This document shows, in pieces, positions 57,356 to 63,776 of a DNA stretch of 64,000 nt. Under the pieces are notes generated by a model. The model did not search any database and had not been told where the DNA came from. It saw only the letters and a program-made list of their open reading frames with translations. This DNA comes from Lentibacillus cibarius. GTDB taxonomy: Bacteria > Bacillota > Bacilli > Bacillales > Amphibacillaceae. Numbering within the stretch: position 1 is the stretch's first letter; the number at the start of each line of letters is the position of its first letter. Made by a program: the position numbers and the translations under genes. The stretch lies in assembly GCF_005887555.1 (NCBI RefSeq), contig NZ_VCIA01000001.1:2542001-2606000 (forward strand), read 5' to 3'.

Positions 57356-57430
57356 TCCACAGTAGCTCAGTGGTAGAGCTATCGGCTGTTAACCGATCGG
57401 TCGCAGGTTCGAATCCTGCCTGTGGAGCCA
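57356..57430 (+). tRNA. tRNA-Asn (GTT)
   Basis: Cloverleaf complete with encoded CCA; anticodon GTT in CTGTTAAC. First of 14 tRNAs, 16 bases after 5S. Confidence 0.96.
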
Positions 57431-57431
57431 T

Positions 57432-57523
57432 GGAGAGCTGTCCGAGTGGTCGAAGGAGCACGATTGGAAATCGTGTAGACCGCTATCGCGGTCTCGAGGG
57501 TTCGAATCCCTCGCTCTCCGCCA
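57432..57523 (+). tRNA. tRNA-Ser (GGA)
   Basis: Class II tRNA with a long variable arm; anticodon GGA in TTGGAAAT; CCA encoded. Confidence 0.96.
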
Positions 57524-57539
57524 TTATAATTATCTTTGT

Positions 57540-57611
57540 GGCCCGTTGGTCAAGAGGTTAAGACACCGCCCTTTCACGGCGGTAACACGGGTTCGAATCC
57601 CGTACGGGTCA
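57540..57611 (+). tRNA. tRNA-Glu (TTC)
   Basis: Anticodon TTC in CTTTCACG; acceptor GGCCCGT/ACGGGTC; CCA not encoded. Confidence 0.95.
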
Positions 57612-57674
57612 TCATTAATTTAAAGGATAGAGTTGACGGCATGTAAATACATGCAATCGCACATCCTGTGCGTC

Positions 57675-57750
57675 GGAGGATTAGCTCAGCTGGGAGAGCA
57701 CTTGCCTTACAAGCAAGGGGTCGCAGGTTCGAGCCCTGCATCCTCCACCA
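57675..57750 (+). tRNA. tRNA-Val (TAC)
   Basis: Anticodon TAC in CTTACAAG; CCA encoded; normal cloverleaf. Confidence 0.96.
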
Positions 57751-57773
57751 TATTTCACTTATTTATTTCATAT

Positions 57774-57850
<77 letters not shown>

Positions 57851-57938
57851 AAATTATTCAATTAACTACGTCGAATAACTATCATTGCTAAATGAATATC
57901 AGTTGTGCTTCATGAGTGCAACCAAAACAATTTAACAT

Positions 57939-58015
57939 GGTCCGGTAGTTCAGTTGGTTAGAATGCCTGCCTGTCACGCAGGAGGTCGCGGGTTCGAGTC
58001 CCGTCCGGACCGCCA
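57939..58015 (+). tRNA. tRNA-Asp (GTC)
   Basis: Anticodon GTC in CTGTCACG; CCA encoded. Confidence 0.96.
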
Positions 58016-58053
58016 TTTTTAAATTAAATCTTATCATTGCTTAACACCTTTAA

Positions 58054-58126
<73 letters not shown>

Positions 58127-58147
58127 CCTTTTCCAAATATAGGATAT

Positions 58148-58232
58148 GGAGGGGTAGCGAAGTTGGCCAAACGCGGCGGACTGTAAATCCGCTCCCTCAG
58201 GGTTCGGGGGTTCGAGTCCCTCCCCTCCACCA
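58148..58232 (+). tRNA. tRNA-Tyr (GTA)
   Basis: Class II tRNA with variable arm; anticodon GTA in CTGTAAAT; CCA encoded. The Thr tRNA found here in B. subtilis rrnD is absent between Phe and Tyr. Confidence 0.95.
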
Positions 58233-58243
58233 TTTAAATAAAT

Positions 58244-58317
58244 AGGGGTATAGTTTAATGGCAAAACGAAGGTCTCCAAAACCTTTGATGCGGGTTCGAC
58301 TCCTGCTACCCCTGCCA
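58244..58317 (+). tRNA. tRNA-Trp (CCA)
   Basis: Anticodon CCA in CTCCAAAA; CCA end encoded. Confidence 0.96.
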
Positions 58318-58330
58318 TAATTTCTATTAT

Positions 58331-58407
58331 GGCGGTCGTGGCGAAGTGGTTAACGCACCGGATTGTGGCTCCGGCATTCGTGGGTTCGATCCCCACCGGT
58401 CGCCCCA
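58331..58407 (+). tRNA. tRNA-His (GTG)
   Basis: Anticodon GTG in TTGTGGCT; the extra 5' G (G-1) gives an 8-base acceptor stem; CCA encoded. Confidence 0.95.
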
Positions 58408-58422
58408 TTATAATCGATATAT

Positions 58423-58497
58423 TGGGCTATAGCCAAGCGGTAAGGCATCGGGTTTTGATCCCGTGATTCCCAGGTTCGAATCCTGGTAGCCCAGCCA
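58423..58497 (+). tRNA. tRNA-Gln (TTG)
   Basis: Anticodon TTG in TTTTGATC; acceptor TGGGCTA/TAGCCCA; CCA encoded. Confidence 0.96.
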
Positions 58498-58503
58498 GTA
58501 AAA

Positions 58504-58578
58504 GCGGAAGTAGTTCAGTGGTAGAACACCACCTTGCCAAGGTGGGGGTCGCGGGTTCGAATCCCGTCTTCCGCTCCA
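58504..58578 (+). tRNA. tRNA-Gly (GCC)
   Basis: Anticodon GCC in TTGCCAAG; CCA encoded. Confidence 0.96.
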
Positions 58579-58599
58579 TTTTCTTTATATTTTTCTTTT

Positions 58600-58673
<74 letters not shown>

Positions 58674-58687
58674 AGTACAACTTTTAT

Positions 58688-58769
58688 GCCGGTGTGGCGG
58701 AATTGGCAGACGCGCACGACTCAAAATCGTGTTCCTACGGGAGTGTGGGTTCGAGCCCCACCACCGGTA
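58688..58769 (+). tRNA. tRNA-Leu (CAA)
   Basis: Class II tRNA with variable arm; anticodon CAA in CTCAAAAT; CCA not encoded. Last tRNA of the array; the B. subtilis rrnD array has another Leu tRNA here. Confidence 0.94.
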
Positions 58770-58805
58770 TCTTTAGATGAAAACAAAATAATTTAAAAAA
58801 ACGAT

Positions 58806-58852
58806 AAAACACTCACAAATATTGATACACCAATGTTTGTGAGTGTTTTTGT
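58806..58852 (+). terminator. Terminator of the rRNA/tRNA operon
   Basis: AACACTCACAAA pairs with TTTGTGAGTGTT, followed by TTTTG, about 40 bases after the last tRNA. Confidence 0.85.
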
Positions 58853-58944: not shown

Positions 58945-59982
58945 TTAATCCAAAAGAAAATCCTTGACCAATTGGTTCAATTGTCTTTTTATATCTGAGA
59001 AATCCCTATTCATATCTAAAGTCTTCACTCCAAACCGATTGTTACTAATAGAAAGTTCACTATCTGGAACAATGACCTCATCCGACATTGCATAGAGTAG
59101 TACTCCGCTCACATGACCAGAATTGGTATAGTCTTTATTTTTAACGTATGTAAAGATTTGGTACATATTGTGAGAGTGAAAGCTTTTACTATTATAATAA
59201 CTATTAGATTGCATCATTTGCTGGTAGTATTTCGTATCTATAATAAGAACCTTTTCTCCATAAGTAAGCGTAATATCGGTTTTCATAACAGGAAGAAACT
59301 CAATATCACCTTCATCAACATCCCAATTAATATGAGAAGCGGAGGCATTAAATTCCGGATAGTGTTTTCGATAGTACTCCAGTACAAACTTTTCAAAAAG
59401 ACGATGCATTTTCTGATTGTCCACAAATCGCGCCAGTTTTCGGTCACCATCTTGCTCGGTAAGTAGTAATCCCTCTATGACCAAATAACATATATTAATT
59501 AACAGCTTATAGGTAGCATTATTCCGGTGGTATTTGATACTTGACCACTGAATTCTACGATAATCTATTCGATCCACGTTGGAAAAGTAAAGCAGCACCT
59601 TTTTTAAATCCTTTTTATTCCTACTTGACACTTCAGGAGTCTTAACTAACAGAACCGCAGTAGTCTTAAGGATCTGGTTCATATAGGTGTTTTCTGTATA
59701 TTGGTCAAAACTACAAATCAACTGCTTGTTTCGCATCGTATTTTGTTTGACTGAAAGAGTAACATTAATTTTACCTTTGGGTGACCTGAGAGATTCCGTA
59801 TTTTCAACATAGTCTCTCCATAATCCCCGCTTAATTTGGTTTCCCATGCCCTTTGCAAGGATAGCGGCAAATAAATCTGCCGCATATTCAAATTCCTCTG
59901 TTTCTAACTTTGCATAGTTTTCCTTATTCATCACTTGAAATGCATACGCAAGCATATGATAAATGTTCTTAATTTTAATCAT
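58945..59982 (-). CDS. mcrC: McrC-family nuclease subunit of a type IV restriction system
   Basis: A 345-residue protein matching McrC. The C-terminal half holds a PD-(D/E)xK nuclease core: aspartate in VMKTDITL and IDTKYY (about residues 235-260). The N-terminal half is the part that docks on the McrB ring. Its start codon overlaps the last codons of mcrB (8 bases), so the two are translated together. As in E. coli McrBC it should cut DNA when the partner finds modified sites. It lies directly behind the tRNA array in convergent orientation. Confidence 0.88.
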   Translation of the reverse strand: MIKIKNIYHMLAYAFQVMNKENYAKLETEEFEYAADLFAAILAKGMGNQIKRGLWRDYVENTESLRSPKGKINVTLSVKQNTMRNKQLICSFDQYTENTYMNQILKTTAVLLVKTPEVSSRNKKDLKKVLLYFSNVDRIDYRRIQWSSIKYHRNNATYKLLINICYLVIEGLLLTEQDGDRKLARFVDNQKMHRLFEKFVLEYYRKHYPEFNASASHINWDVDEGDIEFLPVMKTDITLTYGEKVLIIDTKYYQQMMQSNSYYNSKSFHSHNMYQIFTYVKNKDYTNSGHVSGVLLYAMSDEVIVPDSELSISNNRFGVKTLDMNRDFSDIKRQLNQLVKDFLLD

Positions 59983-62455
59983 TCAGAACACCACGGAGTC
60001 GATTTGTCCATAGTTCAATCTTAGAGGGATCGTCAAACCAATACTCATCTAATAATGGTATCAATTCATATTCTATTACCGATGACAACCACTCGTCTGT
60101 TATTTCTTCATCTGGGCATAGATAGCTATGACCGATTTTAAAGCCACTTCCAAGAGATTCGTCTTGACTAATATAGTTGTTTAGGGCTTTTATTTGTTCA
60201 ACTAGAGCATTAAATTTTGAGTTATTTGCTTTAGATACTATTTCTTGAAACCCGTCAGAATCAAATGCTGGCTCTAATTTAAAGAAAGCAAATCGTCTTC
60301 TAAGGGCATAATCAATCATGGCTAGGCTTCGATCTGCTGTATTCATCATTCCAAGAATATATACATTCTTGGGAACTGAAAATAGTTCATTGGCATAAAG
60401 CAGGCGAAGTTTTTGCCCACGCTTGTCATTTTCGATTAGCATTAGAAGTTCACCAAATATATTACTTAAATTACCTCGGTTAATCTCATCAATAATAAAG
60501 AAATAATCACGGTCACTGTCCTGTTCAGCTTTTTTACAAAACTCATAAAATGGCCCTTCTGCAAGTTCAAATCCATTGTTTGTTGGGCGATATCCCATAA
60601 CAAAATCTTCATAACTATAGCTTTGGTGGAATTGTATCATCATTACCCGACTCACATCTTTTTCACCCATCATAGAATATGCAAGTCTTTTGGCAGCAAA
60701 TGTTTTTCCGACGCCAGGTGCCCCTTGTAAGATAACGTTTTTCTTCTTATTAAGAAGGGTTACTATTCTGTTGTAACGATCTTCATCCATAAATACTTCA
60801 TGAAGAAAATCCTCTTCTGTATAGGGGTCGTAATCGACTTCTATATCTTCTATATCATCATCTTCATCTATAAACAGGTTTTCAAGTTTCCGTACATAAT
60901 CCGTATATGGGGTTATATCGGTAAGTGTCTTATTTACGGCCTTACCGGGATGTTCCAATTCATCATTATTAATCCATTTCACTTTATGGATATGTTGATA
61001 TTTGTCACGAGTTGAATCAAACATATATTCAGATTCAACGATGCCTCGTCCGATTACTTTTGACCTTCCTTTTTTTACATAGATGGTATCACCTGGTAAT
61101 AATTCATTAGCAAATTGCCATGTGGCGTGTGCGGCATTAATATACGTGTATTCTTGTCCATATATTTCTTTCATTTTGGATTTCATTTCTTCTTTTGATG
61201 AAAATTGACTTAAATCACCCATTTCATCCCAACCAATCCCCATAATACCTTGGGAGTAAAATTCGTCCCATTTGGAGGCATTACGACCAGGAGAATAAAT
61301 CCAATATCTTTTTTCTTTTTCGTTTACTATATCAGAAGGAGAGGGAGCATCTTTTTCTCTTTCCGTCTTCATTTTATCTGCCCATTTAATAAAAATATCA
61401 CTGGCTAGTTCATCATCCATGTCGACGGTATGTCCTTTTTCAGTAAGTGTCCACTTACCTCGAAAAAAGTTATCTATGTATCCTTCATAGACTAAGTAAT
61501 TTCTTGCAAATGCAACTTCATTATCAAATGTTTTAACACCACTTTTTCCACGTGTTTCATTAATAAAATCATCTGTGAGTTTTAAATCAGATATAATCTG
61601 TTTGCGAACTTCTAAGGGGGTACCAGAGCCACCAAGTTCTCTTAGTGCATTTATTAGCGGGCCAAACCATTTAAGGAAGCTAGCATTTGATTTCTTTTGT
61701 TTAGGAGAAGTTGCTTTCCATGCTGCGAAAGATAAATCCGGAAAACTTTGATGTGGAAATTCTTCCTTTTCAAAGGTGTCTTTAAAGTAATCAATTAGTT
61801 CTAAGTAATCTTCGGCATTAGGTAATTCCTTTAATTTCGATATCTTGGTTATATCATCCGAATAGGGACTGTTACGCTGTAATAAGTAAGATCTATTTCT
61901 TTCGTCTAAGTTTATGTAAAAATATGGACGAATCCAATAAAGTCCCATCGTTAGATTCCATTTAACGCCAAGCTGCATTCTTACCTTATCATAACTAGTT
62001 ATAAACTCCTTCTTTAGCTCGACAGATTGTTGGCCTGCAAGGTGTATTCCTACTTCAAATATTTTCCAAAGGCTTGGGATATCCTCTGGTTTTCTTCTAT
62101 CGTTGGATGCAAAGAACCATGCCTTCATGTTATTCAAGACAGGAATGCCATCAAAGTTAGTTGGAACAGGGGATCGAACTCCAATTTTACTGCTAATTCC
62201 TTCAGCTATGGCTATACGATTTTCGTTTGTAATTCCCTTGTTAAAACACCCAAAAACAGTGAATGGGCATATATCATCAATCGGTTCACCATCTTCAGTG
62301 AAAGGGTAACGTATATTTAAATTTCCATAGACATCCTCTAGTATGGATAGGAGTTCTGATCTTTTAGTTTTATACTGTAGAAGCTTGTCTGCGAATTCCA
62401 TATAAAAATCTGTCCAGGAGAAGGAATTTGTTTTAGTTGGGTTATCTGTTTTCAT
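59975..62455 (-). CDS. mcrB: McrB-type AAA+ GTPase with winged-helix and EVE-like reader regions
   Basis: An 826-residue protein. Residues about 1-245 form a region not recognised. About 260-345 resemble the Mrr N-terminal winged helix (LRELGGSGTPLEVRKQII, then EVAFARNYLVYEGYI and GKWTLTEKG). About 383-500 resemble an EVE/PUA-like modified-base reader (YWIYSPGRN, GIMGIGWDEMGDLS, PGDTIYVKKG, VIGRGIVES). The McrB motor occupies about 557-800: Walker A GAPGVGKT, Walker B FFIIDEINRGN, signature MNTADRS, arginine finger region ALRRRFAF. Such an enzyme recognises modified bases, translocates DNA with GTP and activates McrC. AGAGGTG precedes the ATG. Base composition looks AT-richer than neighbouring genes, consistent with acquisition. 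Confidence 0.88.
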   Translation of the reverse strand: MKTDNPTKTNSFSWTDFYMEFADKLLQYKTKRSELLSILEDVYGNLNIRYPFTEDGEPIDDICPFTVFGCFNKGITNENRIAIAEGISSKIGVRSPVPTNFDGIPVLNNMKAWFFASNDRRKPEDIPSLWKIFEVGIHLAGQQSVELKKEFITSYDKVRMQLGVKWNLTMGLYWIRPYFYINLDERNRSYLLQRNSPYSDDITKISKLKELPNAEDYLELIDYFKDTFEKEEFPHQSFPDLSFAAWKATSPKQKKSNASFLKWFGPLINALRELGGSGTPLEVRKQIISDLKLTDDFINETRGKSGVKTFDNEVAFARNYLVYEGYIDNFFRGKWTLTEKGHTVDMDDELASDIFIKWADKMKTEREKDAPSPSDIVNEKEKRYWIYSPGRNASKWDEFYSQGIMGIGWDEMGDLSQFSSKEEMKSKMKEIYGQEYTYINAAHATWQFANELLPGDTIYVKKGRSKVIGRGIVESEYMFDSTRDKYQHIHKVKWINNDELEHPGKAVNKTLTDITPYTDYVRKLENLFIDEDDDIEDIEVDYDPYTEEDFLHEVFMDEDRYNRIVTLLNKKKNVILQGAPGVGKTFAAKRLAYSMMGEKDVSRVMMIQFHQSYSYEDFVMGYRPTNNGFELAEGPFYEFCKKAEQDSDRDYFFIIDEINRGNLSNIFGELLMLIENDKRGQKLRLLYANELFSVPKNVYILGMMNTADRSLAMIDYALRRRFAFFKLEPAFDSDGFQEIVSKANNSKFNALVEQIKALNNYISQDESLGSGFKIGHSYLCPDEEITDEWLSSVIEYELIPLLDEYWFDDPSKIELWTNRLRGVLND

Positions 62456-62939: not shown

Positions 62940-63776
62940 CTATTTCTCTTCCATTATGTCTTTAAAATCCTTGAAACTTGTACTCGGAGTAATTCCGATT
63001 CTTTTTAGCTCATACGGGTCATCCGATGACTTCACATAGCCGTGTTCCGTTGTAAAAGCCATTGTTATTCCAACGTCCTCCAATAGATTTTTAGATTCAG
63101 AATTATACTGTCCAAACGGGTAAGCAAAAAGAGTTACATTACCGTATTCCGAAAGCCTGTCCTTACTTTTGCGAAGATCCGATAACACTTCTTCATCCGA
63201 TTTCCATAAAAAATCCGACTTTTCTCTTTCACTTCTGTTGAAATGTAGTTTATTAGTATGACTTTGAAGTTCAAAGACGTCTGAAATCCTATTAAGCATT
63301 TCCTTATCCATATACTGGTTCCGGGAAGGATCCCATTTATCACCGTAATCCCTATACGTTCGCCTTGTGATAATGTTAGCTACACCATCAAGATTATGTT
63401 CTTTCATAATTGGATAGGCATACCTATAAACGCTTCTTAAACCGTCGTCAAACTGTATCATTACACTTTTTCGCGGCAATTGCATTTCCCCCGCTAAAAA
63501 ATGCCTCATTTCATCAACTGTAACAGTATGATAGCCGTTTTCTTTCAGGTATTTCATCTGTTTCTCAAAACTATCAGCCGTTATATAACTAGAATTATCA
63601 GGTCGTAACTGTTTTTCCTCGTCTGTTAAAATACCATGATACATCAAAACGGGAATTTTATTCTCTATATCATTCGATTTACCTTCCACACTACTCGAAA
63701 CCGAAGTACATGCTGTCTGTGTAAGCAATACCACGAGAACGCTGACTAGGAAGGTTGTTGTGCGTCTTATATCCAT
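62940..63776 (-). CDS. Polysaccharide deacetylase-family lipoprotein
   Basis: A 278-residue exported protein with a lipoprotein signal (LTQTAC, Cys23) and a NodB-type deacetylase domain: VLMYHGIL, MIQFDDGLRSVYRYAYPIM (metal aspartate pair), QSHTNKLHF (metal histidine site) and FAYPFGQYN. The type resembles PgaB/IcaB-like enzymes that de-N-acetylate surface polysaccharide (poly-N-acetylglucosamine). AAGGGGGAT is 3-5 bases before the ATG. It is a lone gene; no ica-like synthase is next to it. Substrate not proven. Confidence 0.88.
   Translation of the reverse strand: MDIRRTTTFLVSVLVVLLTQTACTSVSSSVEGKSNDIENKIPVLMYHGILTDEEKQLRPDNSSYITADSFEKQMKYLKENGYHTVTVDEMRHFLAGEMQLPRKSVMIQFDDGLRSVYRYAYPIMKEHNLDGVANIITRRTYRDYGDKWDPSRNQYMDKEMLNRISDVFELQSHTNKLHFNRSEREKSDFLWKSDEEVLSDLRKSKDRLSEYGNVTLFAYPFGQYNSESKNLLEDVGITMAFTTEHGYVKSSDDPYELKRIGITPSTSFKDFKDIMEEK

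Follow-up and report, generated by a model that had tools for sequence, protein, structure and literature searches.

We found that the locus at positions 58945-62455 (minus strand) of a 64-kb window of Lentibacillus cibarius DNA, the window being the whole stretch analysed, is a real and intact McrBC type IV pair, as judged by gene integrity, domains, and motifs. Its McrB-like protein falls in a widespread class whose reader slot is exchangeable, and pairs of this kind are already listed in the literature. The gene pair has the appearance of an intact anti-virus system, which would probably cut DNA bearing foreign chemical marks. As a whole, the locus is in our judgement quite likely best explained as an McrBC system in which a Mrr_N winged helix is the most likely specificity module.

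The mcrB-like gene (59975..62455) encodes 826 residues from an ATG start with an AGAGGTG-like ribosome site upstream. It overlaps by 8 bp the mcrC-like gene (58945..59982; 345 residues), and neither open reading frame (ORF) has an internal stop in the window sequence. McrB carries the three marks of an AAA+ GTPase, namely Walker A (GAPGVGKT, residues 578-585; 60701..60724), a Walker B-position sequence (IIDEIN at residue 654), and the NxxD signature (NTAD, residues 705-708; 60332..60343), and Pfam places AAA_5 at residues 573-722 (E 1e-23). The same operon encodes an McrC partner with a PD-(D/E)xK nuclease motif, D236...D249-T-K251 (59230..59277), assigned from the sequence and from whole-protein family matches: Pfam McrBC (PF10117) with E 1.8e-36, the NCBIfam equivalog NF007277 with 374.6 bits (cut-off 338), and 6hz4_M with E 2.6e-42. 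The score of the NCBIfam McrB equivalog, 305.1 bits, lies below its cut-off of 637 because only the motor part (543-822) matches. In a search of solved structures, these residues matched E. coli McrB chains with E 1e-89 to 2e-90, and matches in a whole-model fold search of McrB were confined to the motor. The original prediction, made from the sequence of the window, had called an McrBC-type type IV pair here, and both ORFs lie where it placed them, with family matches and motifs in place.

Four parts follow one another along McrB, all encoded on the minus strand: an N domain (residues 10-247; 61715..62428), a Mrr_N-type winged helix with a linker helix (258-368; 61352..61684), which sits in the exchangeable reader slot, an EVE/PUA-like domain (383-530; 60866..61309), and the AAA+ GTPase motor (545-826; 59978..60823). 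The predicted multi-part reader before the motor was thus recovered. Pfam assigned the winged helix to Mrr_N, not DpnI_C (residues 262-344, E 1.2e-14, 54.6 bits against a cut-off of 29.5). The EVE-like label is the weakest of the domain labels: Pfam gave no match, EVE included, on the 383-530 piece of the window protein, and found EVE in 2 of 18 scanned members (best E 0.0047). A PADLOC model, PDC-S02, matched with E 1.4e-17, and the element order agrees with EVE except for one extra helix. Profile-profile comparison with slot EVE domains gave nothing, and comparison with solved structures only chance-level matches. A profile match between the winged helix and EVE (99%) proved an artefact, as the searched set contained the slot-EVE proteins themselves, and was not used.

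This architecture had been thought unusual, but it is the common one in its class. A family search with McrB scored at least 7995 candidates, all with E 0.001 or better. Among the best 120, which we listed with the query included, 108 have the order N domain, winged helix, EVE-like domain, and motor, in 6 an EVE domain replaces the winged helix, in 5 the slot is empty, and 1 has three EVE-like copies; the precomputed PF14338 column likewise gives 108 of 120. The precomputed annotation of class proteins also contains PF28527, PF28529, and PF28530. From the proteins that carry it, PF28527 appears to be the N domain; PF28530 is probably the EVE-like domain, since it was not seen in forms lacking that domain, and PF28529 would be the C-terminal part of the motor, since P0099, whose sequence stops at query residue 733, lacks it. 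The Pfam copy searched gave no match to the N, EVE-like, or motor C-terminal parts. We found no literature naming these three families, and no experiments on this McrB class in a partial coverage of the literature, so that a report may exist.

The module in the slot varies among relatives while both flanks remain alike. Lentibacillus jeotgali has an empty-slot form with a likeness of 73% in the N domain, 77% in the EVE-like domain, and 82% in the motor. On plasmid p1318-6 of Roseomonas marmotae, the slot holds DUF3578/MrcB_N (278-450), followed by the EVE-like domain (472-619) and the motor (631-933). In E. coli McrB, methylcytosine is read by DUF3578 (PMC11090510). Proteins without the EVE-like domain show further arrangements: DpnI_C lies between N domain and motor in P0289 and P0321, Mrr_N lies there in P0361 and in front in P0257, and DUF4357 lies in front in P0291. 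Quick trees were built from 105 of the 120 listed proteins (the other 15 fell outside alignment A1). On the tree of EVE-like domain plus motor, the slot state (Mrr_N, EVE, or none) requires at least 7 changes, with the same minimum on the N-domain tree. Because slot content changes among relatives, we assign specificity to the winged helix and regard the EVE-like domain and the N domain as the constant parts.

By analogy with E. coli McrBC, the motor would form GTP-driven hexamers joined by McrC, whose PD-(D/E)xK domain would cut DNA. Specificity would reside in the region before the motor. There, the winged helix would read modified double-stranded DNA from a slot otherwise filled by known or presumed modification readers. 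The EVE/PUA-like domain, a near-constant second module by the motor, may be a second base-flipping reader or an adaptor, and the N domain would be the constant chassis piece of the class, probably binding DNA or acting as a gate on the motor. Such a system would matter because the specificity code becomes testable when a single position accepts modules from at least four families: natural relatives with Mrr_N, EVE, or an empty slot could be assayed side by side on the same modified DNAs, the class is large, and a winged helix reading a mark outside the range of known readers would provide a detection tool.

Several results weigh against the winged helix as the specificity module. The Mrr_N profile found no DpnI chains among solved structures and no sequence match there at all beyond chance level. 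On the tree of EVE-like domain plus motor, 40 of 101 inner branches have less than 80% support, and weak branches are included in the minimum of seven changes; with the Mrr_N rows set aside, the EVE and empty forms need just one change. The five empty-slot proteins among the 120 indicate that the slot module is dispensable in some forms. In addition, the architecture hidden Markov models were built from members of the same 120-protein list. As a separate observation, a Lentibacillus relative (G006, L012:6960-7996) has an mcrC split in two, next to an mcrB gene that lacks the winged helix.

It is possible, though clearly less probable, that true base-flipping recognition lies with the EVE/PUA-like domain, while the winged helix adds only non-specific or sequence-specific DNA binding. 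Every one of the 120 listed proteins has the EVE-like domain regardless of slot content, the five with an empty slot included, and W385, W396, W446, and W494 of this domain are invariant across 105 aligned rows. Next to McrB motors, EVE and YTH domains have been shown or predicted to act as readers (PMC7641849, PMC11037411). However, the domain stays while its neighbours change, also beside DUF3578, as expected of a constant adaptor, and its sequence link to EVE is weak.

We regard it as rather unlikely that the winged helix reads 6-methyladenine (6mA), like the winged helices of DpnI and HhiV4I, and that the system attacks adenine-methylated DNA. The DpnI_C winged helices between N domain and motor in relatives favour this idea, and 6mA activity of pairs of NTD-wH-NTPase (N-terminal domain, winged helix, NTPase) and McrC was left open in PMC11037411. 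The same paper reports a 6mA/GATC motif in about 10% of its winged-helix fusions, and the lack of a profile match between Mrr_N and DpnI also speaks against it, as does the host itself: the genome encodes an intact Dam-family methylase (TIGR00571, 312.1 bits against a cut-off of 114.85), a type I HsdM, and another N6/N4 methylase. For C5 methylases, the genome shows a single remnant match with 2 stops and no intact gene. We surveyed methylases in 37 genomes, comprising 17 of 19 carriers (those of L082 and L085 were left out) and 20 non-carriers. Full-length D12 was present in 3 of the 8 carriers of the Mrr_N form versus 4 of the 20 non-carriers, which argues against adenine methylation as the target, and in 2 of the 9 carriers of other forms. 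C5 matches occurred in 5 (the host remnant included), 13, and 2 of these genomes, respectively. With no pattern of methylase exclusion, no target was inferred, and the results speak neither for nor against the hypermodified phage bases suggested in the original prediction. Elsewhere in the host genome (L087), the Dam-family methylase (1426-2289) is followed by an unnamed 428-residue ORF (162-1448) that adjoins an ORF resembling a tape-measure gene by eye; the two are perhaps a restriction-modification pair in a prophage, and the 428-residue protein had no NCBIfam or Protein Data Bank (PDB) match.

The N domain had been described as an unrecognised 245-residue region. This was correct for the Pfam copy searched, in which residues 1-250 alone gave no match up to E 10; the region is, however, a family with a Pfam number, apparently PF28527. 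Using the N domain of a Clostridium relative as query (threshold E 0.001), we found the domain in 4479 scored proteins among 5264 candidates. In the 120 of these proteins that were listed, the order is N domain and motor in 105, two N domains and motor in 9, and different in 6. The N domain begins at residue 150-199 in 80 of the 120, and additional modules therefore precede it in these proteins. Across 316 N domains, W174 is conserved in all 316, W166 and P177 in 315 each, and D184 in 313. In an AlphaFold2 (AF2) model of the domain alone, the fold is largely helical, with a predicted local distance difference test (pLDDT) of 87.5 and a predicted template modelling score (pTM) of 0.87. Matches of the N-domain profile to solved structures were at chance level, and a viral structure library gave nothing.

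Rows of a structure search, together with a by-eye likeness of G163-x-K-W...N-L-D184 to the helix-hairpin-helix (HhH) motif, raised the idea that the N domain has a base-flipping fold of the HhH-GPD (DNA-glycosylase-like) type that has diverged far. Trp166 and Asp184, both near-invariant, would then occupy the Nth-type catalytic Lys/Asp positions. Were it true, type IV systems would pair an exchangeable winged-helix reader with a scaffold taken from repair enzymes, catalytically active or dead, which would check phage DNA for modified bases or excise them. We consider this improbable. K165 is variable, with Lys in 159 of 316 domains and mostly Gly, Gln, or Arg otherwise, and Pfam found no HhH-GPD in 18 N domains. 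Profile-profile comparison with Nth, MutY, AlkA-like, and OGG-like sets (taken from relatives, with group names assigned by eye) gave probabilities below 1%, while the positive controls reached 86% (AlkA-Nth), 82% (AlkA-MutY), and 96% (OGG-like-AlkA). Among 40 shuffles, the observed score was reached by 25 for Nth, 7 for MutY, 40 for AlkA-like, 1 for OGG-like, and 20 for all sets together; with residues 140-200 alone, the numbers were 5, 33, 15, 7, and 28. The alignment registers also failed to superpose the motifs.

Some members of the N-domain family are unusual in other ways. The precomputed Pfam column of P0280, P0288, P0303, P0307, and P0316 carries many repeat families, presumably tetratricopeptide repeats (TPR), and P0280 has three N-domain matches and no motor. 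A 417-residue frame of Desulfosporosinus (L082:5974-7224) joins roughly 190 residues from the start of the McrB N domain to an McrC part, and looks like a remnant of an internal deletion.

A non-defence or degenerate McrB relative similar to the staphylococcal cell-division protein PcdA is a very improbable reading. In its favour, the published account traces PcdA to an EVE-containing McrB of Bacillota (PMC10602043). Against it, the pair here retains intact Walker motifs, an intact signature and C-terminal part, and an intact McrC partner, unlike PcdA as described, and the distribution is patchy, with a match at E 1e-40 in 8 of 60 genomes, the host's own included.

The reading as an McrBC system with a winged-helix reader can be compared with four described groups. 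With E. coli K-12 McrBC, the locus shares a GTPase motor that is 51% identical across 279 aligned residues, the McrC nuclease, and the NxxD signature. In E. coli McrB, a single DUF3578 reader precedes the motor (PMC11090510); here, in contrast, that place is taken by an N domain, a Mrr_N winged helix, and an EVE-like domain, and Pfam found no DUF3578. As in EVE-McrB, described as especially common among Firmicutes and Bacteroidetes (Bell et al., 2020; PMC7641849), a PUA/EVE-type domain is fused before an McrB motor, but in the window protein this domain escapes the Pfam EVE model and stands beside a winged helix. Mrr_N and EVE are among the labels of McrB proteins in Bell et al. (2024; PMC11090510), and the CoCoNuTs described there are likewise McrB/McrC relatives with additional N-terminal modules; CoCoNuTs sit in the NxD clade, whereas the protein here has NTAD (NxxD) and thus falls outside them. 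The closest description is that of Helbrecht et al. (2024; PMC11037411), who list 'NTD-wH-NTPase' fusions paired with McrC-like proteins, for which one purification failed and activity was unstudied. By part order alone, the N-terminal domain, winged helix, NTPase, and McrC-like partner are all present here. An EVE-like domain between winged helix and motor goes unmentioned in the available part of that paper. What had been put forward as a new defence variant is therefore an intact pair with an exchangeable slot, but of a kind already listed.

The pair lies behind an array of 14 tRNA genes (57356..58771, plus strand) converging on mcrC. The suggested AT-richness was evident: mcrC and mcrB have 35.0% and 35.6% G+C, compared with 42.0% for window positions 1-52000, where none of 27 ORFs of at least 250 residues is below 36%. 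The 3.66-Mb host genome contains a single McrC match. Among the other 7 genomes with matches in the search of 60, the N domain is shared by just two, G032 and G006, the latter lacking the winged helix. All 12 genomes of the genus have the tRNA array, and none of the 8 downstream regions examined in the 11 other genomes has mcrBC after it. In two congeners, a segment of about 10 kb with mcrBC is missing behind the same array: a 422-residue ORF (L011 12114 in the host) starts about 300 bases after the array in G010 and about 1.6 kb after it in G009, with one ORF of at least 150 residues between. The remaining 6 regions have different genes there. Because of this comparison, we consider mcrBC part of an accessory segment at a variable site. 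The proposal that the array is a typical insertion site holds to this extent, but tRNA-mediated integration is unsupported: no integrase was seen by eye among ORFs of at least 100 residues, and exact pieces of the tRNA-Leu gene of 12 or more bases did not recur on either strand in the next 18 kb.

Between the array and the 422-residue ORF, the host has mcrC, mcrB, and ORFs named by eye as deacetylase-, Dus-, aldo/keto reductase-, and transposase-like. The polysaccharide deacetylase-like lipoprotein ORF (62940-63776, minus strand), which adjoins mcrB, found no counterpart at 1e-30 when the 11 other genomes of the genus were searched. The Dus-like gene had matches in 9 of these, none inside the eight regions examined. 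The transposase-like ORF (IS1182-like by eye; L011:9999-11777, beyond the window) marks the far end of the segment. Among 72,556 plasmid records, McrB (P0001) matched 27 at 1e-50, with none over more than 80% of its length among the 15 of these that were listed, and among 50,697 phage records it matched 7 at 1e-20, all within the motor; at these limits, the exact McrB form is therefore in no record of either collection. Between tRNA-Leu and mcrC, a perfect 12-bp inverted repeat with flanking A/T runs (58808..58847), which a scan with a loop limit of 8 did not list, is, from its sequence, likely a two-way terminator shared by the converging genes.
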